Shown piece after piece: positions 3,453 through 20,830 of a stretch of DNA of 64,000 bases; the stretch's first letter is position 1; the number at the start of each line of letters is the position of its first letter. The stretch comes from Ctena decussata (lineage: Eukaryota; Mollusca; Bivalvia; Lucinida; Lucinidae): the NCBI GenBank assembly GCA_963989385.1, contig OZ022498.1:6207501-6271500 (forward strand), read 5' to 3'. A program made the position numbers and the translations under genes. The notes beneath the pieces are model-generated. The model had not been told where the DNA came from. It saw nothing but the letters and a program-made list of their open reading frames with translations, and searched no databases.

Positions 3453-3457
3453 AGTTT
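3453..3457. repeat. Left target-site duplication AGTTT
   Basis: AGTTT directly precedes the left end of the Polinton and is repeated exactly at 20826-20830 just after the right end. Polintons usually duplicate 6 bp, but only 5 match here. Confidence 0.75.
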
Positions 3458-3658
3458 AGTAGTGATATATTGGTGGTTTTACAATATACTATTAATAATT
3501 AAGCCAGTACAAACCAAGACCAGGCTTAATTTCACAATATATGGTAAATATGTTTTAGAATTAAGCCAGTACAAACCAAGACCAGGCCTTATTTCAATAG
3601 TATATCGTACATGTGTTTATAATTAATCCAGTACAAACCAAGACTAGGTCTTATTTCA
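3458..3658 (+). repeat. Polinton left terminal inverted repeat
   Basis: About 200 bp matching 20624-20825 in reverse complement with very few differences. It contains three internal copies of AAGCCAGTACAAACCAAGAC starting at about 3501, 3563 and 3624, a period of 61-62 bp. Confidence 0.93.
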
Positions 3659-3839
3659 TAGTATATCGTAATTTTTAAGGTTCGCGAATATGGATATCAA
3701 AATTTGAATGGATTAATAAATCTCGTAAATAAGTAGAGCAACTAGTCCTACAACGACGCCCCCGACTATCAGTGCTGTTTTGTGGTTTTCATGTTCTTCA
3801 GCAACAGTTTTTGGTGTGGAACTCAGTACTGGATGTGTG

Positions 3840-5147
3840 TCAGGTTTTGGTATTTTCAATGACTTGTGAGTCAGTCATGACATTTTTTGTGATAGCCTCA
3901 GGTTTTGTTTTATATATCTTCTGTGCCTGTTTCTCGGTGGGTATCGTTATTGGCATTCCAAGTGCTCCTATTATGGTTTTACCCTGGGCAGCTAAAGGGA
4001 TTGATCCAGGTTCTACATCAACCTTTGGTTTGTGTGTTGGGGTCCCACTCACATCAGTGTAAGATGTGGCATTGACAGGAAGGTTTACGGTTTTGTTCCA
4101 CCATAACTTTTGATTATGAGTAGAGAGTACAATCTCGTTGTTGTAATTTTTTATTGTCCCGATTTGCAATTCCATATTGCTTGGAGCCATGTAAAGGCCA
4201 TAGCCAAAAACATAGTCAACCTTGCTCCGGGCGTACTTCAAAGTATTTTGATACCGGGTAATTTGACTTGGTAAGTCTATTGGCCTTTGGACTCCATCTT
4301 CGTTTGCAAGGAATTCCTTCTGGACATCAAAAGCTGAGCCTATCCCTAGTATGTCGGATTTAATCTGAGACTGAGAGCCAAGAATGGCCCAACAGTAAGT
4401 CCTTATGGAATCATTTATTCGTTCAACGCCGGGTCTTGTAAAGCCATCTGATTTGTCGAGAATAAATGTGGACCAAGCATTTCGGACATGTTGTGCAATG
4501 TAGTCAATGTGATAAACATTATCAGGATGATTCCTTGAGAATGAATATAATTTATTATCATATTCACCTACACCTTTGACCGGTTGGTACCCAGTGTTTG
4601 TTACATACCAGTATATAGTCCCTAATCCGCTATTGTCATCTCGGTTTTGCCTCCAGTCGGTATGCACTGAGACTCCAAACTCGTCACAGATCCTCTCATA
4701 GGCCTTCTTGTCATAACTGTTGTCAAACGCATTCCAGCTGTCATCTGTTGGTAATGCCACTTTCATTTCGAATAATATTCTTCGCGTTTGATAATACACA
4801 TGAAACAAAAACAATGAACGTGCAAACAGTGGAATAGTGCCTGTCAGGTCGTCTTGCATAGAAACACCACATCCTGTAGTTGCGCACCACAAAGCAAAAT
4901 TTATCTGGTTTTGCCAAAACTGTATTTGGCATGAACGCCAATTTTGGGCGATGGCATCACTTTCAACGTAGGGCAGCACGTATTTTGCGAAGATGTCAGG
5001 GAATTTCACATCGAAGCCGCTTGGACTGTCTGAGGCATGTTTGACTTCTATTGTTTGGTTAATGATGTCTAGGTTTTTTGTGTTGTAAACTCCAGATGGT
5101 TGATATTGTGCGTTGGGGTTGTATGAAAATGCTTTGATTTGCACCAT
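3840..5147 (-). CDS. Conserved Polinton protein of unknown role, 435 aa
   Basis: Reads MVQIKAFSYNPNAQYQPSG at its start and is rich in aromatic residues. It shows no nucleotide-binding or protease motif and no obvious signal peptide. From memory, proteins with this opening (IKAFxYNPNAxYxPSG) and an interior LPSQITRYQ-type stretch occur in other animal Polintons, so a structural or virion role is plausible but not shown. The start ATG is 39 bp from the divergent start of the penton-like gene at 5187, implying a shared promoter. The frame stops at 3840-3842. Another frame directly downstream, ending with TAA at 3713-3715, encodes a basic stretch and one hydrophobic segment (TALIVGGVVVGLVALLIY). 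The native protein therefore probably ended in a membrane anchor now separated by a one-base change near 3845. Confidence 0.85.
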   Translation of the reverse strand: MVQIKAFSYNPNAQYQPSGVYNTKNLDIINQTIEVKHASDSPSGFDVKFPDIFAKYVLPYVESDAIAQNWRSCQIQFWQNQINFALWCATTGCGVSMQDDLTGTIPLFARSLFLFHVYYQTRRILFEMKVALPTDDSWNAFDNSYDKKAYERICDEFGVSVHTDWRQNRDDNSGLGTIYWYVTNTGYQPVKGVGEYDNKLYSFSRNHPDNVYHIDYIAQHVRNAWSTFILDKSDGFTRPGVERINDSIRTYCWAILGSQSQIKSDILGIGSAFDVQKEFLANEDGVQRPIDLPSQITRYQNTLKYARSKVDYVFGYGLYMAPSNMELQIGTIKNYNNEIVLSTHNQKLWWNKTVNLPVNATSYTDVSGTPTHKPKVDVEPGSIPLAAQGKTIIGALGMPITIPTEKQAQKIYKTKPEAITKNVMTDSQVIENTKT

Positions 5148-5186
5148 TTTTATAACAATGATTTTTTATATTATCAAATAAAAAAA
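5148..5186. promoter_or_regulatory. Compact divergent promoter region, 39 bp
   Basis: Only A/T-rich sequence separates the two divergent ATGs. It includes TTATCAAATAAAAAAA just before the plus-strand start, almost identical to the leader of the capsid gene at 9873. Transcription must start within this gap or inside the opposite gene. Confidence 0.5.
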
Positions 5187-5831
5187 ATGCATCTCATAAT
5201 TTCTGATATGAGCAATTCTGTAATCCTGCAACAGTATATTGACAACAGAGATGGATTCAAGCGGGTGGGATTAAACAGTTTTACATACTGTTTGGGTTGG
5301 TATAATGTTCATAATGAAGTCATTCAAAAACAAGGCGAGACTCCTGTTCGCATAACGCCTGGGTATTATAGTTTTCAGCAGTTAGCAGACATATTTCGCA
5401 GCCATAAAATCAGTATGTCTGTAGATGAAACCAACGGAATAGTGACTTTGACTACACCTATTGAGTTAAAAATAAGCAAAAGACTCAAGACAATGCTTGG
5501 ACTCCAGATTAAAGGCCGTTTTTTTCCAAAACACATTTATCAAGGTGAAAAGCCGCTGGACTTTGCTGTTATAAAATCTTTGTATGTTCATTTGTCGGAA
5601 ATAAATTCATCATATAATTACTTTAATGGCTCACCGAGTGATGTATTAGCAGTCATTCCCATTGAAAATAAAAGCTTTGGTGATATTATCACTGTCCGCT
5701 TTGAACACCCAGAACTCAAGCCGTTAAAGACAGGGGCCTTATCTGAATTGAAACTAGTTGTTAAAGATGAAAATAAAAACACGGTAGACAATCATGGTTT
5801 GCCCATGAGTTGTGTTTTAGAAATAATTTAA
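5187..5831 (+). CDS. Probable Polinton minor capsid (penton) protein, 214 aa
   Basis: The likely start is ATG 5187 (MHLIISDMSN), because an upstream in-frame ATG at 5139 would overlap the start of the opposite gene. The sequence has conserved blocks PGYYSFQQLADIF, NGIVTLTTP, SLYVHLSEI, PSDVLAVIPIEN and ELKLVVKDE, ending HGLPMSCVLEII. These match, from memory, the small Polinton protein predicted to be a single-jelly-roll penton subunit at the vertices of the icosahedral particle. It is predicted mostly beta, with no transmembrane segment. The frame is intact, unlike the major capsid gene. The structural assignment rests on recalled family patterns and was not tested by a search. Confidence 0.75.
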   Translation: MHLIISDMSNSVILQQYIDNRDGFKRVGLNSFTYCLGWYNVHNEVIQKQGETPVRITPGYYSFQQLADIFRSHKISMSVDETNGIVTLTTPIELKISKRLKTMLGLQIKGRFFPKHIYQGEKPLDFAVIKSLYVHLSEINSSYNYFNGSPSDVLAVIPIENKSFGDIITVRFEHPELKPLKTGALSELKLVVKDENKNTVDNHGLPMSCVLEII

Positions 5832-5849
5832 ATTTCATTTTATATAATA

Positions 5850-6224
5850 ATGAGCATTTTTGGAAAACAGAAAGAAGATGTTTTAGAAACAACTCTAAAT
5901 ATGGATGGTAAACGCATAGTCAATGTAGCTTACCCTCGAGACCCAGATGAAAATGCGGCGTTTGGCGGTGACGTGGTAACAGCAAAGGCTTTAAATGATT
6001 TAAGGAAACATTTGCTACACGAAGTGTTACAACGTCATACTGATAATGTTATGAATGGTAGATTAGATATGACCCAGCATCGAATTTCTGGTCTTGCGAG
6101 TCCTGTTAATCCTGATGATGCAGTAAATCAAGCCTAAATTACATCGAGGTTGCAGACCATAACGAATTTACTAAACGAGTTTAATAAACGTATTAATAAT
6201 TTGGAAAAAAATATAAAACAATAA
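5850..6224 (+). pseudogene. Small protein with fibre-like repeat, broken by one stop
   Basis: The first frame gives 95 residues to a TAA at 6135-6137. The same frame then stays open for 28 more codons to a TAA at 6222-6224, a coiled-coil-like tail (NLLNEFNKRINNLEKNIKQ). Two internal repeats have the pattern (L)xMxxxRIxxxAxPxxPDxxA: NMDGKRIVNVAYPRDPDENA and DMTQHRISGLASPVNPDDAV. This pattern resembles the collar repeats of phage tail-fibre proteins, so a trimeric fibre on the virion is one possibility. It lies 18 bp after the penton-like gene in the same direction, which would fit a vertex-associated fibre. The function is inference. Confidence 0.6.
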
Positions 6225-6227
6225 AAA

Positions 6228-6890
6228 ATGAAACCGCCAACGGCTCCTTATCAGGATTTGGGAGATGAGAAAATTTATCCGGATTTGTCTAAAGACTGTC
6301 AAAACTATCGCTTACAAAAAATATCAGAAATAGAAAAGCAATTAATAAGAGAAAAAGATGTTAGAAAGGCTTTATATAAAAAATATAAACGCGGAGTCAA
6401 CCTCACAGACGGCGTTGATACTGCATTGATTTCTGCAAGTGTCGTTATGGCTGGGATAGGCCTGGCAGTGCCAGTGATGCTGCCTTTAGAAATTGTTGCA
6501 ATTGTCTGCGGATGCATGGGCGCCTGCGTGAAATTGGTGAGACGTAAATTAATGTCAAAGGCACAAAAGCACTATGAGATTAAAACTCTTGGAGAAAGTA
6601 AGTTGAATTCTGTTAAAAATTTGATTTCCAAAGCCTTAAATGATGGACAGATATCAGAACAAGAATTTAAGATTGTTCTTGATGAGCTGGACAGATATAA
6701 TGATTTAAAAGATAAAACACACACCAAACAGTCTGGTCTGAGTGAGCAAGAAAAACAAGCTTTGATAGACAAAGGAGAAGCCAAAGCGCTAGAGCTAATC
6801 AAAACAAGAGCTCCGCTGAGCGGGGCAATATACGCCCGTTGGGGCTTAAAGTTGGAAAGAAAACAAGAGATGACAGAACTTTGCCAGTAG
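6228..6890 (+). CDS. Membrane-associated Polinton protein, 220 aa
   Basis: An intact frame starting MKPPTAPYQDLGDEKIYPDL. Residues about 25-65 are highly basic and predicted helical (QKISEIEKQLIREKDVRKAL). Residues about 70-105 form one or two hydrophobic segments (ALISASVVMAGIGLAVPVML, LEIVAIVCGCMGACV). The rest is charged and coiled-coil-like (LISKALNDGQISEQEFKIVL). I recall related ORFs from other animal Polintons but no assigned function. It could help particle assembly at a membrane or act as an internal virion protein. It begins 4 bp after the end of the preceding frame and is the last gene before the inserted array. Confidence 0.75.
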   Translation: MKPPTAPYQDLGDEKIYPDLSKDCQNYRLQKISEIEKQLIREKDVRKALYKKYKRGVNLTDGVDTALISASVVMAGIGLAVPVMLPLEIVAIVCGCMGACVKLVRRKLMSKAQKHYEIKTLGESKLNSVKNLISKALNDGQISEQEFKIVLDELDRYNDLKDKTHTKQSGLSEQEKQALIDKGEAKALELIKTRAPLSGAIYARWGLKLERKQEMTELCQ

Positions 6891-6899
6891 CTTAACTCT

Positions 6900-8475
6900 T
6901 CAATAATAAGGCAGATATAAAACTACAAAACAAACAAAGCTAATATGAAATTCCTAGACAAAAATTAGAAAGGGGCATAATTCCATCATAAATGGAAGTT
7001 CGGTTATGGTTCTTTTTCTCTTCATATTGTCTGATATTTGTACAAACTTTCGTGAAAAAATCTTAAACAGTTTTCAAGATATGGAGCAGACACAAAGCTA
7101 ATATGAAATTACTATATGAAAAATACAAAGGCATATAATTCCATCAAAACTGGAAGTAGGGTTGTGGTCCTTTTTCTCTGCACATTGTCTGATAATGCTT
7201 CATATTTGTATAAACTTTTATGAAGAAATCTTATACGGTTTTCGAGATATGGAGCAGAAAAATAATGTTACCTTTTGAACTTTGACCTCTAAGTGTGACC
7301 TTGACCTTTGTCAAAATTACAATACTAGAAACACAAAGGGGCTTAATTTTATTAAAAATGAAAGTAAGGTTATGTTTCTTTTTCTCAGCACATCGTTCGA
7401 TGGTGCTTTATATGTATACAAACTTTCATGAAGAAATCTTAAACAGTTTTCGAGATATGGAGCGGACATGAAGCTTATATGAAATTACTATAAAAAAAAT
7501 ACAAAGGGAAATAATTCCTTCAAAACTGAAAGTAGGGTAATGGTTCTTTTTCTCTGCACATTGTCTGATGGTGCTTTATATTTGTACAAACTTTCATGAA
7601 GAAATCTTAAATGGTTCTCGAGATATGGAGCGGACACGAAGATTATATGAAATTACCTTCGAAAAATACAAAGGGAAATAATTCCGTCAAAACTGAAAGT
7701 AGGGTAATGGTTCTTTTTCTCAGCACATCGTCTGATGGTGCTTTATATTTGTACAAACTTTCATGAAGAAATCTTAAACGGTTTTCAAGATATGCAGCGG
7801 ACACGAAGCTTATTATGAAATTACCTTTGAAAAATACAAAGGGAAATAATTCCGTAAAAAATAAAAGTAGGGTAATGGTTCTTTTTCATTGCACATCGTC
7901 TCATAGTGCTTTATATTTGTACAAACTTTCATGAAGAAATCTTAAACGGTTTTCGAGATATGGAGCGGACACGAAGATTATATGAAATTACTATAAAAAA
8001 ATACAAAGGGAAATAATTCCGTCAAAACTGAAAGTAGGGTAATGGTTCTTTTTCTCTGCACATCGTCTGATGGTGCTTTATATTTGTACAAACTTTCATG
8101 ATGAAATCTTATATGGTTTTCTAGATATGGAGCGGACACGAAATGTTACCTTTTGACCTTTGACTTCTAAGTGTGACCTTGACCTTTGTTGGACATCGTT
8201 GAAATATGTGTTCTGCACATCGTCTCGTTAAGGCAAACATGTGACCCAAGTTTCAAAAAAATCCTTCAAGGGGTTGAGGAGATATGGAGCGGACACGAAA
8301 AGTTTACGGACGGACGGACGGACAGACGGACGGACGGACAGACGGAAGGACGGACGGACGGACGGACGGAGGCCACGACATAATACGACCCGTCTTCGAC
8401 GGGCGTATAAAAAAGATAAGCCCCACATACTTTTGTTCAACAAATTTGTGTTTGTGAATGGTCCACCACCAAAAT
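6900..8475. repeat. Tandem array with (ACGG)n end, inserted in the Polinton
   Basis: About seven units with a period of 167-168 bp. CAAAGGG landmarks lie at 7334, 7502, 7669, 7837 and 8004, with a 208-bp spacing between the landmarks at 7126 and 7334. Two units carry TGACCTTGACCTTT (about 7300 and 8175). The array ends in a GGACGGACGGAC cluster at about 8309-8371, followed by the inverted pair CCCGTC/GACGGG. It encodes nothing recognisable and occupies the space where more Polinton genes could be expected. Confidence 0.85.
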
Positions 8476-8482
8476 ATCAAAA

Positions 8483-9831
8483 TTAAACACTTCCGGTTGA
8501 CCTACTTATTTTTTTTTTCAAAATCCATTCTTTAGCTGCCGCATATACCAACCCAGCAACAAGCACAACAACAGCCCACAGATTATTACCAAACCAGCTT
8601 ACAACCTTACCGGTTGCAGACAGCAGCCAAGACACAATTGACCCAACTATACTAGGCAACGCAGCTGCCGCTTTTCCAGCAAGATTTGCTAGTAGTCTAG
8701 CAAGATTATGAAGTTGTTTTTTAACCCATTCTTTCGCTCCACCTTGCGATGGTTTGGGTGTTGTACCACCGCCTCAAGAAGTTGGAATTACAGCTTCAAC
8801 TATAACACCAATAATCATGCCAAGAGCCGTCAAAATACTAACTATCGTTATACCTTGCTCTTTGAATAATGTTTTCAACCGCTCACGCAATGTCGTATCT
8901 TTTTTTAAGACTTTGTCAATTGTTTCTTTTATCCTGTTTATTTGACCCCGCAACTCTTCTTTGTTTGCACTGGCAGCCTCCAGTCTTGCGGCTCTTTCAT
9001 CTTCTAAGTTTTTCAAACAAGCCTTTATTTCATTTTTACTGATTTCATCCTCAGCCTCTTGTAATTTTCTTTTGCAATGTCTTTATCAAGCTCGGTTAGT
9101 TTTGCTAAATTATTTGTAAGCTCACCGCGGTTGCGTTGCAATGCCTTGTCTAATCCTTGAAGTTCCCGGAGTGTTAGTCCTTCTGTTTGTGTTTGAGAGT
9201 TTTTGACATCAGGCAGCTCCATCAACGTTTGTAGTGATGTCTCAACTTGGTTTGTGGCATCAACTGTTTTTTGAACATCTGTCTGTTCTGAAAAATCTTG
9301 CATTGGTATTTCTTCTGTTGCGGTATTTACTTCATTTTTTGCAGTGATCAAAGCTTGAAATTCTGCTCTTCCGGCCCTAAGTCTTGCGGTAGATGGTTGA
9401 TAGTCAGTTACACCTAATTCATCTCTCATAAACTTAACACCATACGTGTTTTGAATTGTGCCAAAAGATCGAAACTGTAATATAGCATCAGGGCTGTTTG
9501 ATTTGTAATATGAAAGTGGAACATCTTTACCGTCTGATTCTATACAAAATAGTGGTCTGCCAAACCGATCATTTTTGATAATCCAATCTGCCTCATCTTG
9601 ATCAAACCCCACTGGTACTTGATTTCTTTCATAAAATCGTTTTACCATCATTTTTACCAAATTTAATCTTTCTTTGTTTTGAGTTTCACCTCTGAGGTTA
9701 TTTAATGCTTCATACTTATTAGTCACTATTCTTTGAAATTCTGTTTCATCGGTAAAAGAGGTGTCTGGTTCTTCAATGTCTTCATGATCTTCATCAAATG
9801 TAGGATTCTCAAAATCGTAACCTTCGGCCAT
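8483..9831 (-). pseudogene. Polinton protein with C-terminal hydrophobic helices, broken
   Basis: The first frame (9025-9831, 268 aa, MAEGYDFENPTFDEDHEDIE) is acidic at the start and predicted coiled-coil later. Near 9060 the reading shifts by one base into the frame containing 8774-9016, whose end is hydrophobic (TIVSILTALGMIIGVIVEAV). After a TGA at about 8774-8776 the same frame stays open for about 95 codons to TAA at 8483-8485. That part has a glycine/proline linker, an amphipathic GAKEWVKKQLHNLARLLANL stretch and hydrophobic segments near IVGSIVSWLLS and WAVVVLVAGLVYAAA. I recall a multi-domain Polinton protein with the same closing pattern but no known function. Membrane remodelling or scaffolding is conceivable. 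It is divergent from the capsid gene, 41 bp between start codons. Confidence 0.7.
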
Positions 9832-9872
9832 TATTTATTTATTGAATAAAAATATATTTTTATCAAATAAAA
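9832..9872. promoter_or_regulatory. Palindromic divergent promoter of capsid gene pair
   Basis: The 41 bp between divergent ATGs are nearly self-complementary around AAAAATATATTTTT. Each half reads outward as TTTTTAT, then a short CAA core, then ATAAA and the start codon. Two inverted copies of one leader motif argue for a symmetric bidirectional late-type promoter. Confidence 0.55.
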
Positions 9873-11191
9873 ATGTCAGCCTACGGAAGTAAACTGGACC
9901 CCTATAGAAAACTACGAGAACCGCTAGGCGTAAAAGGAATTCGACAAAGCGTTGTAATCACTAACAACCCCAGCACTATAGACCAAAACCAGCAGCTGCT
10001 TGTGAGATTTCCAAATCTAAGTAATAATGATGTCATCGTCCCAAGAACTGCACGTCTCGCTTTCACTATTGAACTGACCAGCAAAGATCCCAATGCGACA
10101 GTCTATCAAAATCTTGGTAGAGCCATCGTGAAGAAAACAACCATTAAAATAAGCGGCAATGAAGTCATGTCAATAGATGACAGCGACATATTTCACTGTT
10201 ATGTTGACTTATGGAAATCCCCATCTGAGCGGATAAACATGGCCTACCAAGGCATCGGCAAATCAAACATGTTAAAACACAGAGTCGGGGCAGGAAACGC
10301 AACAGCTGACGCTGAAGACCAGGCCATTGCTGGCGCCTTCAAGAACAGGTTTTGCATCCCACTGGACTTTGAACTGCTAGAGACGCATATGCCTTTTTAC
10401 CAGGCCGGGCTCGGTGATAGGCTAGAGTATGAATTAACATTTAATGACTATTACAAAGTAATCAGCTCAACGGATGCCGACAGCAGTTATGCCATCAGCA
10501 ATATCTGTTTAGAATTCGACATGGTAACCGACTCAGAACTTGCATGAACAATCAGACAACAGGTCAGTGGCAGAATGGCGATATTGTATGACCGTATTTT
10601 GCGGCACAGAAAAATCACAAAAAAAAGTCTGATACCCTGTGGAATATCAACTTGAATGTCCCAGCAAGAAGCATGAAGGGGATTTTAATGTTGTTTGAAG
10701 ACCCGGACAGGACAACCACTGAAGATTTTTACAATCCAAAAATCACAAAAGTTGAAATGACAATAGAAGGCATACCGAATCAACTGTACAGCCAAGGCAT
10801 GCGGCAGTACCAACAGTGGGACGAAATCAATAAATACTTTGCGCTGACATCCAAACGCGACAAAGAAACCGATAAAGTTGCAAAAGACTTATACTTCAGC
10901 AACACTAACATTGAAAAATATCTCACCAAAAGATTCGCTTTATGGCTTGACTTGCGTTCCACGGATGACAACACCTTGCACGGCAGCGGCAGAAGGATTG
11001 AAAATGCCAGTGAAGGGATAACAATCCAAATTGAAAAAGAACAAGGAGCAGATGAAAATTTAAATATCTACCTTTTTATAATACAAGATGCGCAAATCAA
11101 TTTTGAAGATGGAAGATTTAGTGAAGTCAAATATTGGGTTTCCAAAATATCCACACTCAGCTGTCATCTCGGGTCAAACCGGATGTGGTAA
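9873..11191 (+). pseudogene. MCP: Polinton major capsid protein (double jelly-roll), broken
   Basis: The N-terminal signature DPYRKLREPLGVKG and blocks RTARLAFTIELTS, ISGNEVMSIDDSDIF, FCIPLDFELLETHMPFYQAG and LEYELTFNDYYKVI identify the major capsid subunit, which would trimerise to form the icosahedral shell. The second half, open from about 10652, has MKGILMLFEDPDR, TKVEMTIEGIPNQLYSQGM and YLFIIQDAQINFEDGRFSEV, the C-terminal barrel. A TGA at 10545-10547 interrupts the first frame. A one-base frame change in the A-run near 10618-10626 moves the rest into another frame. Intact length would be about 435 residues, normal for the family. Its tail overlaps the start of the ATPase gene by about 80 bp. 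Confidence 0.88.
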
Positions 11192-11762
11192 GACTTTGTT
11201 TGTCCTAGATTTACTTGAAAAAGAATACAAAGGTGTCTTTGAAAAAATAGTCATACTTTGTCCCACCGTGGAGTGGAACAAGGCCTACAAAAACCGGAAC
11301 TGGATTGGTGACGTGCGGCGTCCAAAAGACAAAAACACAATTATAGTAAACCCTGTGATGCGAGATGGAACAGAAGACTTCAAGAACTGCTGCGATATTT
11401 TTTTGATAAATTTGCTGGCCGACCTACATTGTACATCATCGATGACTGCTCTGCAACAAAAGAACTAACAAAGAAAAAAGACATGCTCTCACAGCTAGCA
11501 TTTTCCGGCAGACACGCAGAGCAAAGCGTCTGGGTCATTTCTCAAAGATATATTTCTGTCTTGAAAGACCTTCGAGAGCAGGCAAAATGGGTCTGTACGT
11601 TTTACACCAAGGACAGAGATAGTTTTGAACATTGCTTGAGGGAAAATGATGTTGTTCCTGCGGATGAAAGGCAGAAAATAAAAAAAAGAACTATCTGAGG
11701 TTAAACACCGTAAATTAATATTAAAAACTGACCAACCAACTGGGTATTGGTTAATGGATTAG
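11109..11762 (+). pseudogene. ATP: Polinton genome-packaging ATPase (FtsK/HerA type), broken
   Basis: Family members pump DNA into the capsid. From ATG 11109 the frame shows the Walker A motif GQTGCGKT (11172-11195) after SAVIS. A different frame from about 11420 carries Walker B (YIIDDC, aspartates at 11441-11446) followed by SGRHAEQSVWVISQRY, a typical sensor region. A frame change near 11410 separates the two halves and another near 11685 displaces the last 25 or so codons, which end with TAG at 11760-11762. With these counted, the length of about 217 residues fits the compact Polinton ATPase. It overlaps the 3' end of the capsid gene, suggesting coupled expression. Confidence 0.85.
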
Positions 11763-11970
11763 CTAAAAGCAAATATAGCAATGCTTAAAGCAAAATATAG
11801 CGCAAAAATAGCAATGCTTTAAGCAAAAAGCAATGCTTAAAACAAAAATAGCAATACTAAAAATGATACTCGAACTAATAACAATTGCTTCTGCCGCTGT
11901 TAATATCTCAGTCGGATGTTTGATTTTTTTCATTTATTTTAAGTTAAAATATATTTTCCAAAATATAAAA
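11763..11970. other. AT-rich spacer with short direct repeats
   Basis: Contains repeated AAAGCAAAATATAGC / AAATAGCAATGCTT units between about 11766 and 11855, then an open stretch with a hydrophobic peptide. The latter is in frame with the next gene but lacks its usual A-rich leader, so I treat it as non-coding or as an optional N-terminal extension. Confidence 0.4.
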
Positions 11971-12480
11971 ATGAACGCTGAAGATCTACCAGAAAATATT
12001 TCACTAGATACACCAGCTGAACGCCAAGATGTGCCAAAACGAGAGAGACTTTCAGCCATTATAGCCGAAGGTGGAAGTCGGCAATATTTAGGGCGTGAGT
12101 TGCAACTCTCAGACATAGATGAAATGACGCCCCAAGAAGTTGATAAGCTTTACTGTAGATATGAAGCCAGGCTTGGTGCAAGTATGACTAAGACGTTGGG
12201 CAATTCTTTTATTAATTTATATGTCATGGGGGTGTTAAAGTATTTCCATGTGGAAAACCCACCCAAGCTATTAGAAGATCTAGAAGAAGACCCATTTATC
12301 AATCATGCTCTGACAAGCGTTTGCTGTGAGCTGTATTATAAGTATGGAATGTACCTGGCTCCATTTACAGCAATGCTAACAACTGCAAAGCATATTAATT
12401 TTAACAAAAATAAAAATGCCATAGAAAAAAATGAATCAGGAATTTCAGGAAGCTCAGAAAACTCAAGAACCCCAGAGTGA
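11971..12480 (+). CDS. Conserved Polinton protein, 169 aa
   Basis: I chose ATG 11971 (MNAEDLPENI) because AATATAAAA directly precedes it, as before other genes of the element. An in-frame ATG at 11833 would add a hydrophobic N-terminus. The body contains LSAIIAEGGSRQYLGRELQL, LYCRYEARLGASMTKTLGNS and INLYVMGVLKYFHV, then a predicted helical region and a polar tail. Related small ORFs occur, as I recall, in other animal Polintons without known function. It overlaps the next gene by 50 bp in another frame. The intact frame and packing support a real gene. Confidence 0.7.
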   Translation: MNAEDLPENISLDTPAERQDVPKRERLSAIIAEGGSRQYLGRELQLSDIDEMTPQEVDKLYCRYEARLGASMTKTLGNSFINLYVMGVLKYFHVENPPKLLEDLEEDPFINHALTSVCCELYYKYGMYLAPFTAMLTTAKHINFNKNKNAIEKNESGISGSSENSRTPE

Positions 12481-12844
12481 ACCCCAGAGTGAACCCCAGA
12501 AAAGTGAAGGTCCACAAAAACGTGAAGAACCCCTAAAAGAAAAAAACCAAAAACGTGTCGCGGCTGGTAAAAAAGGCGCTGAAGCCAGATGGAAACAAAA
12601 ACAAGCCCAAACCCTGGAAGCTGAACCAATCAAAATAACAAGAGAGCCACAACTACCAGAGCGGCAACCAACAGTGACTGTTTATAAGAACTATATTCCG
12701 CTCTGTGTGATGATCGGAGCTGTAGGCGTTGGTATTTACATGATTTACAGTAAAACTGAAATAAAACAACCTCAATCACAACCTAAATCACAACCTAAAA
12801 TACCTGAGATACAAACGTCGATAGACCCTTTTGAAATGAGATAA
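12431..12844 (+). CDS. Single-pass membrane protein with basic stalk, 137 aa
   Basis: Begins with a Gln/Pro/Glu-rich tail containing a short tandem repeat (EPQSEPQSEPQ, from a 12-bp DNA repeat at about 12471-12494). Then comes the basic block NQKRVAAGKKGAEARWKQKQ, a second low-complexity region, one transmembrane helix (IPLCVMIGAVGVGIYMIY, about residues 97-114) and a Pro/Gln/Lys tail. The KRVAAGKK block resembles, from memory, a recurring block in small Polinton membrane proteins. The overlap with the preceding gene suggests translational coupling. A virion membrane or assembly role is inference. Confidence 0.7.
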   Translation: MNQEFQEAQKTQEPQSEPQSEPQKSEGPQKREEPLKEKNQKRVAAGKKGAEARWKQKQAQTLEAEPIKITREPQLPERQPTVTVYKNYIPLCVMIGAVGVGIYMIYSKTEIKQPQSQPKSQPKIPEIQTSIDPFEMR

Positions 12845-12878
12845 TTAAAATTAAAAAAACTATATTTTCACAAAAAAA

Positions 12879-13112
12879 ATGGCAGCCATTGACGGTAAAC
12901 AAATTGCAAACATGCTTTATCATGCCGGAGTAGAAACTCTTCTCACTGTTGGGTACTCAGAACTTGGCAAGAAACTCTTGAGAAGACCTGCACCAAAAGT
13001 GGATTTTAATGTGGGTGATATTGGAATGCTTTCTATTGATATACTGCTGGCGATGGCCACACGCGATATGTTGATTAAGCAGGGTATTATTCCAGCGGAT
13101 ATTATGAAATAA
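12879..13112 (+). CDS. Small conserved Polinton protein, 77 aa
   Basis: Reads MAAIDGKQIANMLYHAG to the end IPADIMK. The A-rich leader CACAAAAAAAATG directly abuts its start. Two hydrophobic helices (residues about 19-30 and 47-62) flank a basic KKLLRRPAPK linker, a pattern of small virion or membrane-interacting proteins. I recall no function. It is part of a plus-strand run of small genes ahead of the integrase. Confidence 0.7.
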   Translation: MAAIDGKQIANMLYHAGVETLLTVGYSELGKKLLRRPAPKVDFNVGDIGMLSIDILLAMATRDMLIKQGIIPADIMK

Positions 13113-13147
13113 TTTCTGTTTTAAACTTTTTTATCACGATAAACAAA

Positions 13148-13573
13148 ATGGCTAGTGCAGTAGCGATGATGTTAGGAGGTGCCGTGGTCAATGCCTTGGC
13201 GTTCACAGGAAGTAATTTTTTATTCTCAAAATTGGGAAAAAACAACGATGCTGAGGCGGAAAGAGAAAGGCATGATAAAGCAGTCGAACAATTAGAAGCG
13301 GCTCAAGCAGCTTGGAGCAAAAAAAGAACCCAGAGATTGGATTTTATCAATGAGGAAATACAAAGAGAACATCATGCTGAGCAGACGTTTGACAATGTTG
13401 ATCAGGCTATGAAACAATACTATTACATTACTGGCAAAAAACTTGACCCACTTCCTCAGGAGCCAAAGTTGAGTGATTATTATGCACCATCCCCAGATCA
13501 GCAAAACCGTGAATTGTTGTTTATTGTTGCGGGGATGGCAGCAACCGGGTTTTTTGCTTATAAGTTGATATAA
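13148..13573 (+). CDS. Polinton two-helix membrane protein, 141 aa
   Basis: Starts MASAVAMMLGGAVVNALAF, a hydrophobic N-terminus, and ends with a second hydrophobic segment (ELLFIVAGMAATGFFAYKLI). Between them lies a charged coiled-coil (DAEAERERHDKAVEQLEAAQ) and the block RTQRLDFINEEIQREHHAEQ. This arrangement is familiar to me from other Polintons, where it is a frequent but uncharacterised protein. The frame is intact and preceded by ATAAACAAAATG. It could be a minor virion or membrane-shaping protein. Confidence 0.78.
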   Translation: MASAVAMMLGGAVVNALAFTGSNFLFSKLGKNNDAEAERERHDKAVEQLEAAQAAWSKKRTQRLDFINEEIQREHHAEQTFDNVDQAMKQYYYITGKKLDPLPQEPKLSDYYAPSPDQQNRELLFIVAGMAATGFFAYKLI

Positions 13574-13615
13574 ATTTATTATTTTTTTAGTCTTAAAATT
13601 GGAATAAAAAAAATA

Positions 13616-14518
13616 ATGGAAAAGATTTACTACAGCCCAAAGGAGTTCTGGAAAGGGCTCCCCGCAGTAGAGAAACTAGCAAAAGAAGCAAAAGTCAGTA
13701 AAAAGCAGGCGCTTGAATTTTTAAAAAAGCAGGCGGCGTGGCAAATATATTTACCCGCACCAAAGAAAATAATACGGCCCAGGTTTGATGCGTCCACCCC
13801 AAATGAAATTCATCAGGCAGATTTGTTGTTTTTGCCGCATGATACAGTCAACCGCAAGACATACAAATATGCGCTGACAGTCGTTGATATTGAAAGCAGA
13901 TATAAAGAGGCGGAGCCTCTGACTTCAAAAGACAGCAAAGAAGTTGCGAAGGCGTTTGAAAATATTTACAAGCGAAAGCTGAACTTTCCCAAGCTTCTAC
14001 AGGTAGATCCGGGCAGGGAGTTCATGGGCTCTGTGACACAGCTGATGGCGAAACACAACGTAAGTATCAGACGTGGCAGGAAAGAGATCCACAGAGACCA
14101 AGCTTTGGTTGAGAGGTTCAACAGGACACTGGCTGAAAGGCTTTTTGGTTATCAGTATGCGAAGGAATTGGAAAATCCGCACAAACGCAACAGAGAATGG
14201 GTAAAAAGATTACCGGAAGTGATCAAAGCCATAAATGCGGAGACGAAAAAAAAACCTCCAGTGAAACAGAAACGGACTGTAGGGAACCCTATTTGTCCTG
14301 ATGCCACTGTAAGATATTTATATCAACCTGGAGAACAAGAAGGGGGCGTACGCCGTGCCACGGACCCAATATGGAGTGTCAGTATTCATAAGATAAGTCA
14401 TCACATTGTTCTGCAGGGCATCAGGGTTTATTATTTAATGCCGCCAGCTCCGCAGAGAGGTTTCGTAACAGAAGAACTGCTTATTGTTCCTGCTGATACC
14501 CAAACGCGTATGTTGTGA
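13616..14518 (+). CDS. INT: Polinton integrase (rve/DDE family), 300 aa, intact
   Basis: Catalyses strand transfer of the element's ends into host DNA. The N-terminal helical region carries KQAAWQIYLPAPKK. The catalytic core has D69 (HQADLLFLP), D131 (LLQVDPGREFMG) and E166 (DQALVERFNRTLAERLF), giving the DD35E spacing of retroviral-type integrases. The C-terminal part (ATVRYLYQPGEQ, DPIWSVSIHKISHHIV, RVYYLMPPAP) is the beta-rich domain seen in Polinton integrases. I see no HHCC zinc finger. The gene is complete with no stops. It converges with the polymerase gene, overlapping its 3' end by 38 bp. Confidence 0.95.
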   Translation: MEKIYYSPKEFWKGLPAVEKLAKEAKVSKKQALEFLKKQAAWQIYLPAPKKIIRPRFDASTPNEIHQADLLFLPHDTVNRKTYKYALTVVDIESRYKEAEPLTSKDSKEVAKAFENIYKRKLNFPKLLQVDPGREFMGSVTQLMAKHNVSIRRGRKEIHRDQALVERFNRTLAERLFGYQYAKELENPHKRNREWVKRLPEVIKAINAETKKKPPVKQKRTVGNPICPDATVRYLYQPGEQEGGVRRATDPIWSVSIHKISHHIVLQGIRVYYLMPPAPQRGFVTEELLIVPADTQTRML

Positions 14519-17500
14519 TGCCGTCTGGGGCTATCCAACGTTTCGTGTCTAGCGGCGAGAGTGTTGTTTTGTTAATTGTAAGGCCGTAGATGTGGTGCTT
14601 TTTGCTTCTCAGCATATTCATTTCGTGGCTGTATGTTTTCCGGTTGAATAGTGCATCTTTGTAGTTTGCAAAGTTGATTTGTTTATTGATGACATATTTC
14701 TTGACACCCTTTGCTTTTTTTATCAGCTGCTCATAAGCCCGCAGAATGGAGTACATCTTGGGACGCAGCCCGACATACTCAGCTATTGGGGTACCTTGAC
14801 ATTCATCCTTCCACTTTCCAATTAGTTTTTTGTTTTGCTCACTATAGAGCGGGTGATCCTTGGGGTAATCTGAGAAGTCATACTGGGTCCTCATGGTTGC
14901 CATATCAGCATATACATCTGGCGTTTTTAGGTCGACCAGCAGGCTGTCTGTGTCGGTGTACAGCAAAGTACAGTTTCTGCCGTACTTCTGTTTCAGTGTA
15001 TTGTAATACCAATCATACATCAGATGCTTGGATAAGTCCAAGACACACATGCCAACATATACTGGTTTGTTTAGTTTCAAGCGAGTCTTGTGTGTATGCA
15101 GGGCTGATAATTCATCAGAAAATATGACAGCCCGGTTGTAATTGGGTTTAGCGATTATTTTTCTTATCTGCTCTTTTTCTTTATCACCGCCATTTGTTCG
15201 GACAATTTTTATATCAACTCGCTTCCGGAGGTTTTCGCAAGTTTTACCAAATACCGAATTGTTCATGAGTTTGTAGAAGTCTTTCTCAAAGGGTGATTTG
15301 GCTTTTTTTCTGAATTCTGTGTTCATGCGAATATATGGTTCCATCCACGGCGCCTCGTTGAATTCTAATATTCTGTGGATTTTCTTGAGTTTCATTCCGA
15401 GGGACAGGTATAGCTGCAGATTTCTGTAATGCAAAACATATTTATTTTTGTCTCTGAGATTTGGGACCAGCTTCTCGGTGTTGAGCATACTGTTATTTTC
15501 AAGAAGGTATGACTGGTAATCAGACAACCATTCTTTTTTTACTTTTAATCGCTCCGGGGCAAGTGGGTAGTCATTATGCAAGTCATGGAGCTCGGCTGGA
15601 TATTCTAGGTCTACTTCTAAGATGCAGCCCTTGCCTGGTTCATCCGGCGGTTTATCAACCCATTTAAAACCAGAATAAGGTAGGGGCTGAGTCATAGCCC
15701 AGCCATAGAGATTATTTGCATCGTAATACATGATGTGGTTGTGCTGTTCGTTAGGATTATAGCCAGGCACGCTAGGGTTGTTAGCCTTAGCGTGTCTTTT
15801 TGAAGTCATGCTGACACGGCCACGCATCCCTTTTTCTATGAATAGATGCTGATCGTAGTCAGTCAGGAGCTCCAGTTCAGTACCGGTGTATTTGAGTAAA
15901 GCGTCCCAGGATAAGCCAGGGGCTGTATAATAATGCAGCGGATCCAGTTTGTATGCATTTATACAAGTTCTACGGAATGTTTGGAATACGTCTGCCAGCA
16001 GAGTCACATCTGTTTTTAGATAGAGATCATGGTAATCTCCCAGCGTCTCGCAGCTGAAAGTTTCCCATACTTTCTGGGCATGTTGGTAATCTTTCTCGGA
16101 TATACTCTCATCTGTTAGGCTGCTGTGGAATTTCTCAATAGGCGGCAGCTGAGTCTCCAGGAACCGGTCAAATGAATCCATATATTCGTATGGGTAAACG
16201 CCCTTTTGTAATAATATTTCAATGTCTGTTGACTGGTGGTTTCTGGTTGGACCAGGAATATCATAACCTTCATCCATTTCTTTTAAGGTGAACTCGATGC
16301 CACAACCTTCTAACACATGGCCAACACTTGATGAACATCCTTTAAGAATACCGGCAATGTCGGACACATTATTCTTGTAAATCATAAGTCCATCAAAAAC
16401 AAGAGAAGCAACCTCGATGCCTTTTCCATTTAAGTAATCGAAAGCAGCCATCAACGCTTTGTTTTCTAACCAGCAAAGTATGTGGTTAATCGTGGATCCT
16501 TCCAGATTGTAATTTGTATGTTTTGTTTTTTGTGCATATTCATACATCTCCGGATTGAGCTGGACAACAGCCTTTATGATACTGCGCATTCCAGTATAAT
16601 AATCGATTAACCACCGTGGATAATCTGGCTGCAGATTCATTTGCTTGCCATTCATTATTGCTAAGAGAAGTTTTTTTGCTTCATCCCGTGTGATGCGGCG
16701 CTTATTCATTAGATCCTGCAACATGGGATCCGGTGCTTGATGTAAGCATCCAGTGCTGCGCAGTTTATCCCGAGTTTGTGACAGTACCAGGAAAGCAGCG
16801 TTGGGTGCGCATTTTTCATGTCGATGTCAAACATGCTGTCCTTGCATATTGTATGACGGATTTTCCGGCTCATATTTTGAATGCCTAGCTTTTCAGCTGT
16901 CCAGTATCGACCAAACCCATGTCGCTGCCGGTATGACATTGGTCGTTCTCCATTCTGGTTTAACATGGAGAGATAATTACGAAGCAAGCTCAGCTGAGTT
17001 TCCTTGTCAGTATTTTGTCCATCCTGGAAACTGCTGCTGAGGTCAAACTGGTTGCTGTGATCTAATATGTAGGCTAGCTTACGCCTGTCGACACACTCCC
17101 GCAGAACGATGGGTCGACCATCTTCGGAACTAAAGCTGCCGTAAAGTCTTTTCTTGATTGGCTGTGGATTAAATGTCTTCTGGGTGATTTTAAAGTCATT
17201 TTTGTCAGTTGCATCAACTAACTTTGCCAAAGATGATGCCATAAACTGAAAGCTGTCCAGAAATTTAAGTTGACCAACGCTGAAAGAGATGTATTTTTCT
17301 GTGTTGTTTGGAATGCACAATAATCTGCTCGAGATTTTGTCAATCTGCTGCATGATTAAATGGCTGTCATATCCTTTGAGATTGTGCAAAACAACAGGGA
17401 TGGGTGTTACCCACGGTTTTATAGCAAGTTTAAGGTTGCAGAGTTTATGAGCAGCAGCTCTAAAGTGGCCTAGGATTCTACAGTGATCACGTACTTTGGG

Positions 17501-19039
17501 ATTTTTTTCATCGTTGAATTCTTTCTGGCAGATCCAGCATTGCGTTGCAGACTGGAAATCCTTCTCATTTTTCTCCGACATGTGTAGGGGCTTCGGCTTT
17601 GCAAATCTTGCATTAATTCCGACTACTTCCCGTTTCAGGGATTTCAAGAACTGCTCCACGGCATCTTCACCTCTGTAAATTCTTACACCAGATGATGCAC
17701 CATCATATCTAACAACCTGATATCCATAGCCGCATGCTTGATGTTTGCTTTTGATTTCAGATTTATCCCCAGCTGCCACTTGATGCGGTTTTATTATGCT
17801 TTCAAAATCGGCATATATGACGAAAGGCACCTGCATCTGTTTATGGTAATTTTTAAACTTTATTTTTTCCCCTGGGGCTGGCATTACAATCTTAGTTGCT
17901 CTGCCATTGATGCCGTAACATTCATCTTTGTGGCTGATTAGTAGGTCTTCACAGGAAAACCCGTAGAGACAGCGGTCGCAGAAGTATGTTTTACCTCCGT
18001 GTTTGTTTTTGTTAAATAGCAGTCTGGAAAGGTATTTTACCCAACAATAATGGTAATTGTCTTTCTTGTCATGGAGCAACAGCAGGTTGATCCGTGACAT
18101 TTCACTCGGCTGCCCAGAAATATGATATGGGACAACTGTCTGCTCATAGCCATATACATTGATGGCGAGATCGTTTTGTTTCTCTACTTTGTAAATTTGT
18201 GATACTGGTGTAGGAAAGTCAATTCCTTCCATGTTTAAATTGTCTTGTTTTGGATAGCTGTATGGGTTGTTGAGATTATTTTTAGCTGGAAATAAAGCTG
18301 ACCTTAAGGCCCATCTAAGGCATTCTTGATCTTGATTTTTCACATTGATTATTGCCTTTTTATTAGCCAAGACCTCAGGAAGTGGAAAATATGATGAGCC
18401 CTTGAGTGGCTCCTATTTTGCGATGTTAAGGTACAATGTATTGCATCTATCAATCATCCAGCCTGAGCCTTCCTTAGTGAATTTTTCGATTTTCTGCTCA
18501 ATTGCCGAGACTGCCTCGTCGTAAAAAGCTAGAATTTCTTGAAGAGACAATGTGGCATATTGATTGCTGTAAAATGTTCCCTGTATATTCTTTTTATCCT
18601 TGAAAAAGTCAACAATAAGCCCAAATTGCCATTTCAGACCGGATAGTTCTTGCAATTCAGCGGTGAGCTTGTTTTTTATAATAGTTTTCTTATCTTGAAA
18701 CATTTTCATGGGGTCTTTGTATCGTTTAACGGAAATTTCATGAGCTCTGAGATAGCCACATTTGGTTTTGTCCACAAGTTTTAATTCAGGCTCAGATTCT
18801 TTTGTCATAAAGAATTGATGGAGTTCATTCATGACGTTTTTGTGTGACTTTTTGTTTTTTTGGATTTCCCGTTTATGTTTCTTTCGTATACGCCGTTTTT
18901 TCCGCAGATTTTCCGACGTTTTTTTGGTGCCTGCCACTGGGGAAGGCGTTTCTAATGCATTTAATGCCTTATTTAATGCACTACCGTCGATTACTCCGTT
19001 TTCATACAACTGTAATAGTGTTTTGACAGAGTCAGACAT
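14481..19039 (-). pseudogene. POLB: Protein-primed family B DNA polymerase with inserted second polymerase domain
   Basis: Replicates the element. From ATG 19039 (residue 1), a basic N-terminal domain of about 210 residues runs to a TAG at 18413-18415. The same frame continues with LKGSSYFPLPEV, so the stop interrupts one protein. Next come a C2HC-like finger (CDRCLYGFSCEDLLISHKDEC), Exo I (YADFES, about residue 410), an endonuclease-VII-like cysteine/histidine cluster (CWIC...DHC...AHKLCN) and Exo II (HNLKGYDSH, about 556). A segment of about 315 residues with family-A-like motifs is then inserted. After it follow Exo III (YHDLYLKTDV, about 1004), motif A DANNLYGWAM (15693-15722), motif B KLMNNSVFGKT (15239-15271) and motif C YTDTDS (14943-14960). 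A one-base frame change near 16727 lies inside the insert. Intact length would be about 1,520 residues, longer than the usual 1,100-1,300. Confidence 0.93.
16226..17169 (-). other. Family-A/TV-Pol-like polymerase palm nested in POLB
   Basis: The segment lies between SLAKLVDATDKNDFKITQKTF, which in ordinary Polinton polymerases leads almost directly to KGVYPYEYMDSFDRF, and that second block. In reading order it has YRQRHGFGRYWTAEKLG and RKIRHTI. Motif A follows as DIDMKNAHPTLLSWY (aspartates at 16826-16828 and 16820-16822). Motif B is R-DEA-K-KLLLAIM-NG (16647-16688), exactly R(x)3K(x)7NG. Motif C is LVFDGLMIY (aspartate at 16392-16394), and KEMDEGYDIP follows. Family A DNA polymerases and T7-like RNA polymerases share R(x)3K(x)7YG and a His-Asp motif C. 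The closest family I recall is TV-Pol. The fold assignment is by motif only. A frame change near 16727 falls between motifs A and B. Confidence 0.72.
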
Positions 19040-19409
19040 TTTTTTTGTTACTATATATATTGCAGTATTTTCCCCTCTAATTAAAATTATTTAATTCCAC
19101 TCATGTAATTAACCCGCGCAGGCTTTTATTCGGGCTTATTTATGCAAGCATGTTAATCATAAATTGGGCCCCAGTATAAAACACCAAAAATTGAGCTTAT
19201 CTTAAGCTCTTGCGGTTTGAGGTAGGTTTTTCTTTCTGTCTTGTGGTTTGAGATAGGTTTTTCCGACGTTGAGTGTAATCTATAATAAGCCCGATTACGT
19301 TATCTTTCAGATAATACCGTGTGATTTAATCATATGATCTTTTGAAAATCCCGTGACTAGTTGTGAAATCTTATATTCTGAATCAGGCTAGGAAATTTAT
19401 TATTTGAAG
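19040..19409. promoter_or_regulatory. Divergent promoter region of POLB and the 231-aa gene
   Basis: The 370-bp gap between divergent starts contains TATATATATTGCAG-type AT-rich sequence near the POLB ATG. It also holds a direct repeat around 19206-19263 (TTGCGGTTTGAGGTAGGTTT and TTGTGGTTTGAGATAGGTTT) and repeated AAGCCCGATT/CGGGCTTATT pieces. No coding signal was recognised. Confidence 0.4.
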
Positions 19410-20102
19410 ATGTCTTTTATTGAATTTTGTGCTGATATTGATCAGCTTACTATTTTGTTAAGAGAACGATATCCAGATGACCAACAGATTCGTGACTGGA
19501 GTACAAAATACTGTGGATCATATTATAATGTATTAAAAAACCAAATATGGAACCCATCTGACTTGCAGACGGAAAATAAGAATTTGAAACAAAGAATTTT
19601 AGCGTTGGAGAGAGAAAATGAATCTCTGAAACAACAAAGTCAAAATCCATCAACATCTGGAGCTAATGAGACAAGGAAAACAACGTTGAAACAACAAAAG
19701 TTCAACAAAATTAAACGATGCGTTGAACTATCATTTTCTGAAGACAGACGGATTTCTGGTGAATTTCAGTACACCCCATCGGGAATAGAAGAATGTGTCG
19801 AAGCGTTGAAAAATCTTGATAGATGTATAGACAGTGATCAACGGAATATAATTTTAAATTCAGCCATCAAGGGACAGGTTTTGAAGGACTTTAAACAGTT
19901 TTCAAAAAGAAACGGGAAAGGGTTTTTGCAGGAGTTGAAAAGTCATGGTTTTCATTATTCATTGTCATATTGTAATTTTTTAATTAAATTCTTTGATTTT
20001 GCAACAAAACATGTTAACATTCAAAAGTGTTCTTTGCCAGTTCGATTTATTTATTTGAATTTTAATATCATAAAGCAAGTTTTTGAAGAATTACAATGGT
20101 AA
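19410..20102 (+). CDS. Unrecognised coiled-coil protein at right end, 230 aa
   Basis: The frame is intact. Either ATG 19404 (MKMSFIEF) or 19410 (MSFIEF) may start it, and I prefer 19410 for its position after GAAG. Residues about 55-80 form a leucine-zipper-like coiled coil (LKQRILALERENESLKQQ), followed by a Ser/Thr/Gln linker and a basic region (TLKQQKFNKIKRC). The C-terminal half (about 120-230) is helical with several Cys and aromatic residues, such as HGFHYSLSYCNFLIKFFDF. I do not recognise the family. Its place between POLB and the right inverted repeat, divergent from POLB, would suit an early or regulatory protein or a replication partner, but that is only positional inference. Confidence 0.65.
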   Translation: MSFIEFCADIDQLTILLRERYPDDQQIRDWSTKYCGSYYNVLKNQIWNPSDLQTENKNLKQRILALERENESLKQQSQNPSTSGANETRKTTLKQQKFNKIKRCVELSFSEDRRISGEFQYTPSGIEECVEALKNLDRCIDSDQRNIILNSAIKGQVLKDFKQFSKRNGKGFLQELKSHGFHYSLSYCNFLIKFFDFATKHVNIQKCSLPVRFIYLNFNIIKQVFEELQW

Positions 20103-20159
20103 TCAGTCCGGCATATTCTAACGGTCTTATACACATGCGTGATTTTGACCTTTGACGAA

Positions 20160-20440
20160 ATGTTATAAATAAAATCACCCATGCATATAATAACGTCGTT
20201 AGTATATGCTTGACTGAACTGGGATTTTCTTTTTGTGTTAAAATTACTGAACTGGGATTTTCTTTTTACGTTAAAAATAAAATCACTCATGCGTATAATA
20301 ACACCGTTAATATATGCTTGACTGAACTGGGATTGTCTCTTTTGTGTTATAATTACGTTAAAAATAAAATCACTCATGCGTATAATAACGCCGTTAATAT
20401 ATGCTTGACTGAACTGGGATATTCTTTTTTTGTGTTATTA
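20160..20440. repeat. Iteron-like repeats next to right terminal repeat
   Basis: Three copies of a block with AAAATCAC(C/T)CATGC, AATAACGCCGTTA and ATATGCTTGACTGAACTGGG start near 20171, 20279 and 20367. CTGAACTGGGAT occurs four times. No counterpart is seen beside the left terminal repeat. Confidence 0.7.
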
Positions 20441-20623
20441 TTAAAAACATTTACGTATGCCTTGTACTTCTTTATTCTTCCATAACACCACAATTAAACC
20501 CAATCTGGGTTTGTACTGGGCTATTTTTTTCATATCCGGATTTGCATAAGTTGAAGAATTAGGTCCAGTCTAGGGTTGTGCATGGTTAGTTTTTCAATAT
20601 ACAGAGCCTTGGCTCGGTATGTT

Positions 20624-20825
20624 GTGAAATTAGACCTAGTCTTGGTTTGTACTGGATTAATTATAAACACATGTACGATATACTATTGAAATAAGGCCTG
20701 GTCTTGGTTTGTACTGGCTTAATTCTAAAACATATTTACCATATATTGTGACATTAAGCCTGGTCTTGGTTTGTACTGGCTTAATTATTAATAGTATATT
20801 GTAAAACCACCAATATATCACTACT
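20624..20825 (-). repeat. Polinton right terminal inverted repeat
   Basis: Inverse of 3458-3658, ending CCAATATATCACTACT. It contains three 61-62-bp subrepeats carrying GTCTTGGTTTGTACTGG. A degenerate fourth copy may lie at about 20500-20590. Confidence 0.93.
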
Positions 20826-20830
20826 AGTTT
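20826..20830. repeat. Right target-site duplication AGTTT
   Basis: Exact copy of 3453-3457 on the other side of the Polinton. Confidence 0.75.

Follow-up and report, generated by a model that had tools for sequence, protein, structure and literature searches.

The question raised by this locus is what a block of extra residues, lying inside the exonuclease domain of a family B DNA polymerase (PolB), is and what it may do. The stretch under study (the window) comprises 64,000 nucleotides of the lucinid bivalve Ctena decussata (GCA_963989385.1, contig OZ022498.1, positions 6,207,501 to 6,271,500) and contains a complete 17.4-kb transposable element of the Polinton type, with a Polinton PolB (pPolB) gene on the minus strand. 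An earlier note, made from the letters alone, had claimed that this gene holds a second polymerase palm, similar to family A, nested in the exonuclease domain. According to the present analysis, a TV-Pol-type domain, about 315 residues long, became inserted between the predicted Exo II and Exo III motifs of PolB, most simply once, and has since been kept, with its motifs intact, as a putative second polymerase site in the same chain; the probability of this reading is put at about 0.93.

The insert and its TV-Pol relatives

The quoted motif blocks stand where the earlier note had placed them, on the minus strand and in two frames: Exo II and DIDMKNAHP are found in the first of two long open reading frames (ORFs; piece 1 in Table 1), and RDEAK...NG, VFDG, KGVYPYEYMDSFDRF and Exo III in the second (piece 2). 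Alignment with an insert-free PolB of the same genome (L074) likewise gave about 315 additional residues between Exo II and Exo III. The insert corresponds to about residues 633–947 of an unbroken copy (L046), its ends being uncertain by a few residues, and has the order DIDMKNAHP, RxxxKx7NG, VFDG. About 80 residues precede its arginine block, in the place that the two-helix thumb module occupies in TV-Pols.

The TV-Pol profile used for comparison was built from eight sequences, three near-identical and two partial. The references were MAP_030 of Microcystis phage Ma-LMM01, plasmid relatives (one Calothrix and two Polaromonas genes) and two sequences from bacterial contigs (GTDB). MAP_030, annotated as hypothetical, was picked by its motifs and an adjoining transposase gene; its TV-Pol label rests on the motifs and on the naming of phage Ma-LMM01 in PMC2579912 (papers are cited throughout from excerpts), and the Polaromonas labels are our own, by motif and profile. 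When the 430 six-frame stop-to-stop ORFs of at least 50 amino acids in the window were compared with this profile, the two insert ORFs ranked first (E 1.3e-7) and second (E 0.64, alone not significant); the pieces are colinear on the model, the N-terminal part at positions 10–71 and the C-terminal piece at 75–103. The insert of the unbroken copy scored 49.9 bits, with 45.1 bits from motifs A–B and 2.7 from motif C, and the best of 2000 shuffles reached 3.9; the remaining PolB, used as a control, scored −1.7 bits or nothing. Profile–profile comparison with TV-Pol gave P 1.3e-11 for the insert and 0.24 for the control PolB. The N-terminal piece of the window insert matched a Polaromonas plasmid TV-Pol with a blastp E of 4e-7 (two-sequence database). 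A tblastn search of 72,556 plasmids (7.3 Gb) with the insert returned only two records at E up to 1, both Polaromonas TV-Pol genes (E 2e-4 and 3e-3), the matches covering insert residues 88–183 only. The profile test named in the earlier note was therefore decided in its favour, and the resemblance is more than chance, the two insert ORFs leading the window and every shuffle falling far below. These comparisons argue for homology between the insert and TV-Pol, the family A polymerase branch of transposons and viruses.

Scans of IMG/VR with the TV-Pol alignment gave 12 loci, each close to the Ma-LMM01 gene, and GTDB contigs gave two; 15 loci matched a KG..YPY[DE]Y-type pattern but were left unused. 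The phage collection searched with the insert contained no match, nor did the window pieces retrieve any relative of the insert from IMG/VR.

The following residues, numbered as in the insert, do not vary between it and four TV-Pols: Y81, R89, Q99, R106, D118, H123, G135, C138, K167, L171, G176, P186, A202, E237, D261 and G262. The RxxxK of the fingers reads RDEAK in the insert; its lysine is present in all four reference TV-Pols and its arginine (R163) in none. A residue survey covered 38 rows with insert matches, representing 32 distinct places (L041, L046 and L068, for example, are one copy). Among readable rows, R89, R163, K167 and H123 are retained in all 37, D118 and R106 in 35 of 37, D261 in 36 of 38 and G262 in 35 of 38. 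Two rows, L061 and L066, have asparagine at the motif A aspartate.

D118, R163 and D261 resemble their family A counterparts in order and spacing (D705, R754 and VHDE 880 in E. coli PolI; D475, R518 and VHDE 652 in T7 polymerase). Profile–profile alignment with a small PolI/T7 polymerase profile pairs D118 with D705, H123 with E710, R163/K167 with R754/K758 and GR...IQN with TGR...LQN. The link from TV-Pol to family A is drawn mainly from PMC2579912 and from the biochemistry of CcPol (PMC7581432, PMC10061031). For RNA synthesis by the insert, no support emerged beyond this distant kinship.

Copies, origin and constraint

The earlier note had also named recurrence as a test, and this too was decided in its favour. 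In the genome searched (1.658 Gb, 245 contigs), the C-terminal piece of the insert gave 117 matching rows, which merge into 104 places when fragments and decayed copies are counted. Six of the 18 copies examined (L046–L051) have a single open frame of 1529–1535 codons that runs through the N-terminal region, the exonuclease, the insert and the polymerase; in each of the remaining 12 the frame is broken at some point. Unbroken PolB frames are present on several contigs. Both polymerase motif sets and one exonuclease motif set stand in the single open frame of these six copies; one predicted polypeptide thus combines the polymerase motifs of two families, the one set lying inside the proofreading domain that belongs to the other. 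The PolB part downstream of the insert gave 77 rows at 75 places, 73 with an insert match within 1500 nucleotides and 2 with none (75 of 501 first-look candidates were scored).

The site is also found empty. L074, one of the two downstream matches with no insert nearby, has an unbroken 1228-codon frame that can be aligned with L046 over its full length, the insert apart; its junction is clean, ...FKLTRKEFGDQS being followed directly by EILLRKGVYPYEY. A junction probe of the same genome found 53 of 150 rows crossing the site uninterrupted, at identities from 100% down to 39% (150 of 519 candidates were scored). These rows were counted by eye as starting at or before residue 48 and ending at or after residue 125; C12:55621049 (61–184) and C7:33316407 (35–190, within an insert-bearing copy) were excluded. 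Nearly all remaining rows begin past the site, as expected of insert-bearing copies. Several other insert-free Polinton-type PolB families occur in this genome, with 39–62% identity at the junction and, in some, open frames of more than 1000 codons.

A tree of the polymerase part used 17 of 21 rows, leaving out L093 and L094 (start motif not found) and L095 and L096 (shorter than 250 amino acids). The seven insert-bearing PolBs, all close copies, form one clade (100/100). L074 is its neighbour (93/96), and the remaining insert-free families branch outside. The simplest reading is that the insert was gained once in the Polinton lineage of the window.

A diverged copy, L052, has a 731-codon frame in which the whole insert is unbroken. 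For the insert, simple substitution counts reach saturation when L046 is compared with L052, L053 or L055, so a maximum-likelihood value was used for the two unbroken inserts. Between L046 and L052 it gave a nonsynonymous divergence (dN) of 0.158 and a synonymous divergence (dS) of about 2.0, hence a ratio of 0.079, which is rough because dS is near saturation; the blocks of motifs A, B and C are unchanged. The comparison shows long-term constraint on the putative second motif set between two lineages. In the decayed copy L054, dN/dS of the insert is 0.82. The upstream exonuclease part of L046 and L052 differs by a dS of only 0.20. The diverged tract extends over about residues 600–1000, as judged from L052 up to 954 and from there on from L053, a broken copy. 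Since the tract takes in flanks of the insert, insert and flanks seem to move together, and exact homing is put low. In the single genome examined, the tract is tentatively read as the product of recombination between Polinton sublineages both bearing the insert, not of separate homing.

Two further observations concern exchange among the copies. Between L053 and L046, nucleotide identity over residues 400–1204 changes blockwise from 0.56 to 0.98, which suggests a mosaic formed by recombination among Polinton copies, although L053 is broken and part of the pattern may be frame effects. N-terminal residues 1–218 of L051, L058, L059, L060, L062 and L077 differ from L046 by dS 0.56–0.96, compared with 0.02–0.08 in other parts. 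The N-terminal domain of these six copies may have been swapped or be fast-evolving; L051 is unbroken there, and frame breaks may inflate the values of the others.

Apart from the roughness of the ratio, several results weigh against a nested and retained TV-Pol site. The single gain covers close copies only, as the diverged or broken copies L052–L057 were not among the tree rows. Motif C reads FDG in the insert and HDG in the TV-Pols compared. Direct similarity to PolI is weak (P 0.0029 for TV-Pols alone and 2.2e-4 once the insert is added), and the PolI/T7 alignment score of 37.4 was equalled or beaten by 4 of 200 column shuffles, a crude control in which one shuffle reached 136 and gap columns distort the result. 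Pfam, PHROGs and NCBIfam gave no polymerase match for the insert pieces, nor did Pfam for the unbroken insert, and it gave none for the four TV-Pol references either; sequence searches of the PDB with the insert or its pieces gave chance-level matches only. A single-sequence structure model and a model of a bacterial TV-Pol, with a predicted local distance difference test score of 46 and 42, respectively, were not usable. Across 13 pairings of L046 with recent copies, dN/dS of the insert is 0.26–0.66, from 4–12 nonsynonymous and 4–8 synonymous changes, and exceeds that of the downstream polymerase part (0.15–0.37, with one value of 0.63) in 12 of the 13. These comparisons have few changes and are non-independent; strong recent constraint is not evident in them.

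Known systems and possible roles

The TV-Pol family (Iyer, Abhiman and Aravind 2008, PMC2579912) has the arginine block, the motif A D....H, the fingers K...NG or YG and the motif C DG in common with the insert. TV-Pols are described there as stand-alone proteins, as having an N-terminal helical domain or as fused to a D5-like helicase, and as never fused or neighbourhood-linked to nuclease domains. The insert sits inside the exonuclease domain of another polymerase, so it departs from the setting published there, not from the definition of the domain. The Polinton pPolB (TP-vOTU-Exo-Palm; PMC11071308) agrees with the window gene in the place and order of Exo I–III and of polymerase motifs A–C and in an N-terminal extension; in that case, however, homing endonuclease domains are inserted, and the excerpts mention no second polymerase. 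The PolA(TVpol)-S3H replicases of virophages and Polinton-like viruses place TV-Pol in the same wider virus group, but there it replaces pPolB and is fused to a helicase, whereas here both polymerases would share one chain. In a Polinton-like virus of Oxyrrhis marina (PMC12721341), pPolB is likewise enlarged by a replication domain, to about 1500 amino acids, but as an N-terminal fusion of an SF1 helicase with no nested polymerase in the excerpted description. The CcPol-MP primase of SCCmec elements (PMC7581432, PMC10061031), which has a TV-Pol-group family A polymerase and belongs to a mobile element, offers a biochemical model; it is a two-subunit stand-alone enzyme, in contrast to a nested domain known from sequence.

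Homing endonucleases in pPolB, pPolB–helicase fusions and TV-Pol–helicase fusions have thus been reported (excerpts of PMC11071308, PMC12220804, PMC12721341 and PMC11348598). A polymerase within a Polinton PolB was not found described in titles or abstracts among the literature matches listed, most subscription papers lying outside the coverage. The predicted protein would be built from familiar components, a Polinton pPolB and a TV-Pol, joined in a way for which the literature searched yielded no description. The earlier note was right about what the sequence contains and, as far as sequence tells, about the identity of the insert.

In one published scenario, several groups of eukaryotic DNA viruses are rooted in polintons, and pPolB and PolA-type (TV-Pol) replicases swap for one another (excerpts of PMC11071308). 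A lineage with both polymerases in a single chain would stand naturally between the two states of such a swap and would make replacement testable. The arrangement also raises the questions of how DNA might be handed over between two polymerases of different families in one chain, and of whether the second polymerase is a solution to second-strand priming in a protein-primed element.

We infer that the second site is an active polymerase. TV-Pols have been predicted to be primase-polymerases (excerpts of PMC2579912), and CcPol-MP primes DNA de novo through the family A active site of CcPol (PMC7581432; likewise PMC10061031, both in excerpt). A priming role, which we hold tentatively, would proceed as follows. 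PolB would initiate at the element ends by protein priming, and its strand displacement would leave single-stranded DNA exposed; the nested TV-Pol site would bind the displaced strand and make or extend short DNA primers, as CcPol does with its partner MP, and the second strand would then be copied in cis by one replicase. Since the motifs of the exonuclease and of PolB are intact as well, the insert would add to proofreading and polymerisation, not replace them. That both strands of a virus-like element are copied at one fork by one replicase with two polymerase sites, one protein-started at the ends and the other self-starting on the displaced strand, is doubtful. A point against priming is that de novo synthesis by CcPol depends on the partner protein, CcPol alone only extending primers (PMC7581432, in excerpt). 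As the best explanation taken as a whole, the inserted domain together with its proposed role stands at even odds.

A serious rival is that the site simply extends primers, fills gaps or bypasses lesions; CcPol without its partner only extends. The nested domain might be an active, non-priming polymerase, filling gaps or passing damage by taking over the 3′ end from a PolB stalled close to the exonuclease site. The same profile and shuffle evidence for a TV-Pol domain would fit this role, and a family A site beside the exonuclease channel could receive a stalled end. Against it, lesion bypass has been reported for an Entamoeba family B polymerase of transposon origin (PMC3511435, in excerpt), so a second enzyme may be needless for that task; this role seems unlikely. 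The domain could instead be kept for DNA binding or for the shape of the replicase, its own catalysis being unused. The replacement of the motif C histidine by phenylalanine, asparagine at the motif A aspartate in 2 of 37 readable rows (L061, L066) and the insert dN/dS among recent copies, which is not low, would suit such a domain. Both catalytic aspartates and RxxxK are unchanged between two lineages near synonymous saturation, however, and rows with changed active-site residues are few; this reading is improbable.

The insert might also be a selfish passenger that homed into a tolerated PolB loop, as homing endonucleases do in Polinton PolBs, and a stretch similar to Endonuclease VII lies within the same exonuclease domain. 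The insert-bearing rows tested form one clade, however, the divergent tract exceeds the insert, the insert is under constraint between L046 and L052, and no nuclease or splicing family was found in it by family library searches (Pfam, PHROGs and NCBIfam on the pieces, Pfam on the unbroken insert); a passenger is thus very improbable. That the resemblance is due to chance, or the arrangement to an assembly artefact, might be suggested by the broken frame of the window copy, but is hardly credible against 104 places, unbroken frames on several contigs, the selection and the shuffles. The reading of the insert as a retained TV-Pol-type domain remains the preferred one.

The Polinton element and its PolB gene

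Polintons are defined by terminal inverted repeats, an rve integrase, a PolB of the protein-primed type and a size of 15–20 kb; capsid proteins and a packaging ATPase also belong to the type. The element in the window has such repeats, integrase, PolB and size. Its repeat arms are 212 nucleotides long and 97% complementary, AGTAGTGATATATTGG opening the element at each end. The PolB was assigned by motifs, because the Pfam search of the window PolB pieces returned no PolB match; the motif names are those in general use for family B polymerases.

The PolB gene of the window copy consists of three open pieces and is disrupted twice, by a stop codon and by a frame change (Table 1). Since it is broken, the pieces were searched separately. 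The N-terminal part is in one open frame with the remaining PolB in 6 of the 18 copies examined.

Table 1. Predicted features of the Polinton and of its PolB gene, in window positions.
Feature	Position	Strand	Remarks
Whole Polinton	3457..20826	.	terminal inverted repeats 3457-3668 and 20615-20826
Polinton integrase (rve)	13577..14515	+	Pfam PF00665, E 1.3e-8, above family cut-off
pPolB N-terminal part	18416..19090	-	cut off by stop codon 18413-18415; putative terminal-protein region, by position only
pPolB piece 1	16712..18412	-	Exo I, Endonuclease-VII-like stretch, Exo II, first half of insert
Exo I YADFES	about 17815-17800	-	read from motif
Endonuclease-VII-like stretch	about 17554-17429	-	Endonuclease_7, E 0.0039 (below cut-off); phrog_423 endonuclease VII, E 0.00055
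Exo II HNLKGYDSH	17386-17360	-	read from motif
Nested TV-Pol (family A type) domain, putative	about 16230..17173	-	about 315 residues; frame change somewhere within 16709-16826
Insert arginine block GR...Q...R	16856..16909	-	aligns with PolI TGR...LQN
Insert motif A DIDMKNAHP	16802..16828	-	Asp codon 16822-16820, His codon 16807-16805; both invariant in a five-row alignment
Insert motif B RDEAKKLLLAIMNG (RxxxKx7NG, fingers)	16647..16688	-	motif and TV-Pol profile
Insert motif C VFDG	16389..16400	-	Asp codon 16394-16392
pPolB piece 2	14484..16826	-	second half of insert, Exo III, polymerase motifs A-C
Exo III YLKTD	16022-16008	-	read from motif
Polymerase motif A YYDANNLYG	about 15728-15701	-	read from motif
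Polymerase motif B KLMNNSVFG	within 14484..16826	-	read from motif
Polymerase motif C YTDTDS	about 14960-14943	-	read from motif

At the flanks of 3457 and 20826 the target-site duplication looks imperfect: by eye, the five bases AGTTT stand on each side and the sixth base is unlike. Other ORFs of the element (9846-11191 and 11082-11698) form adjacent or overlapping open pairs, as if they too were frame-broken in the window copy. A tandem array with a 167-base unit, in 4.7 copies, lies within the Polinton at 7354-8142.
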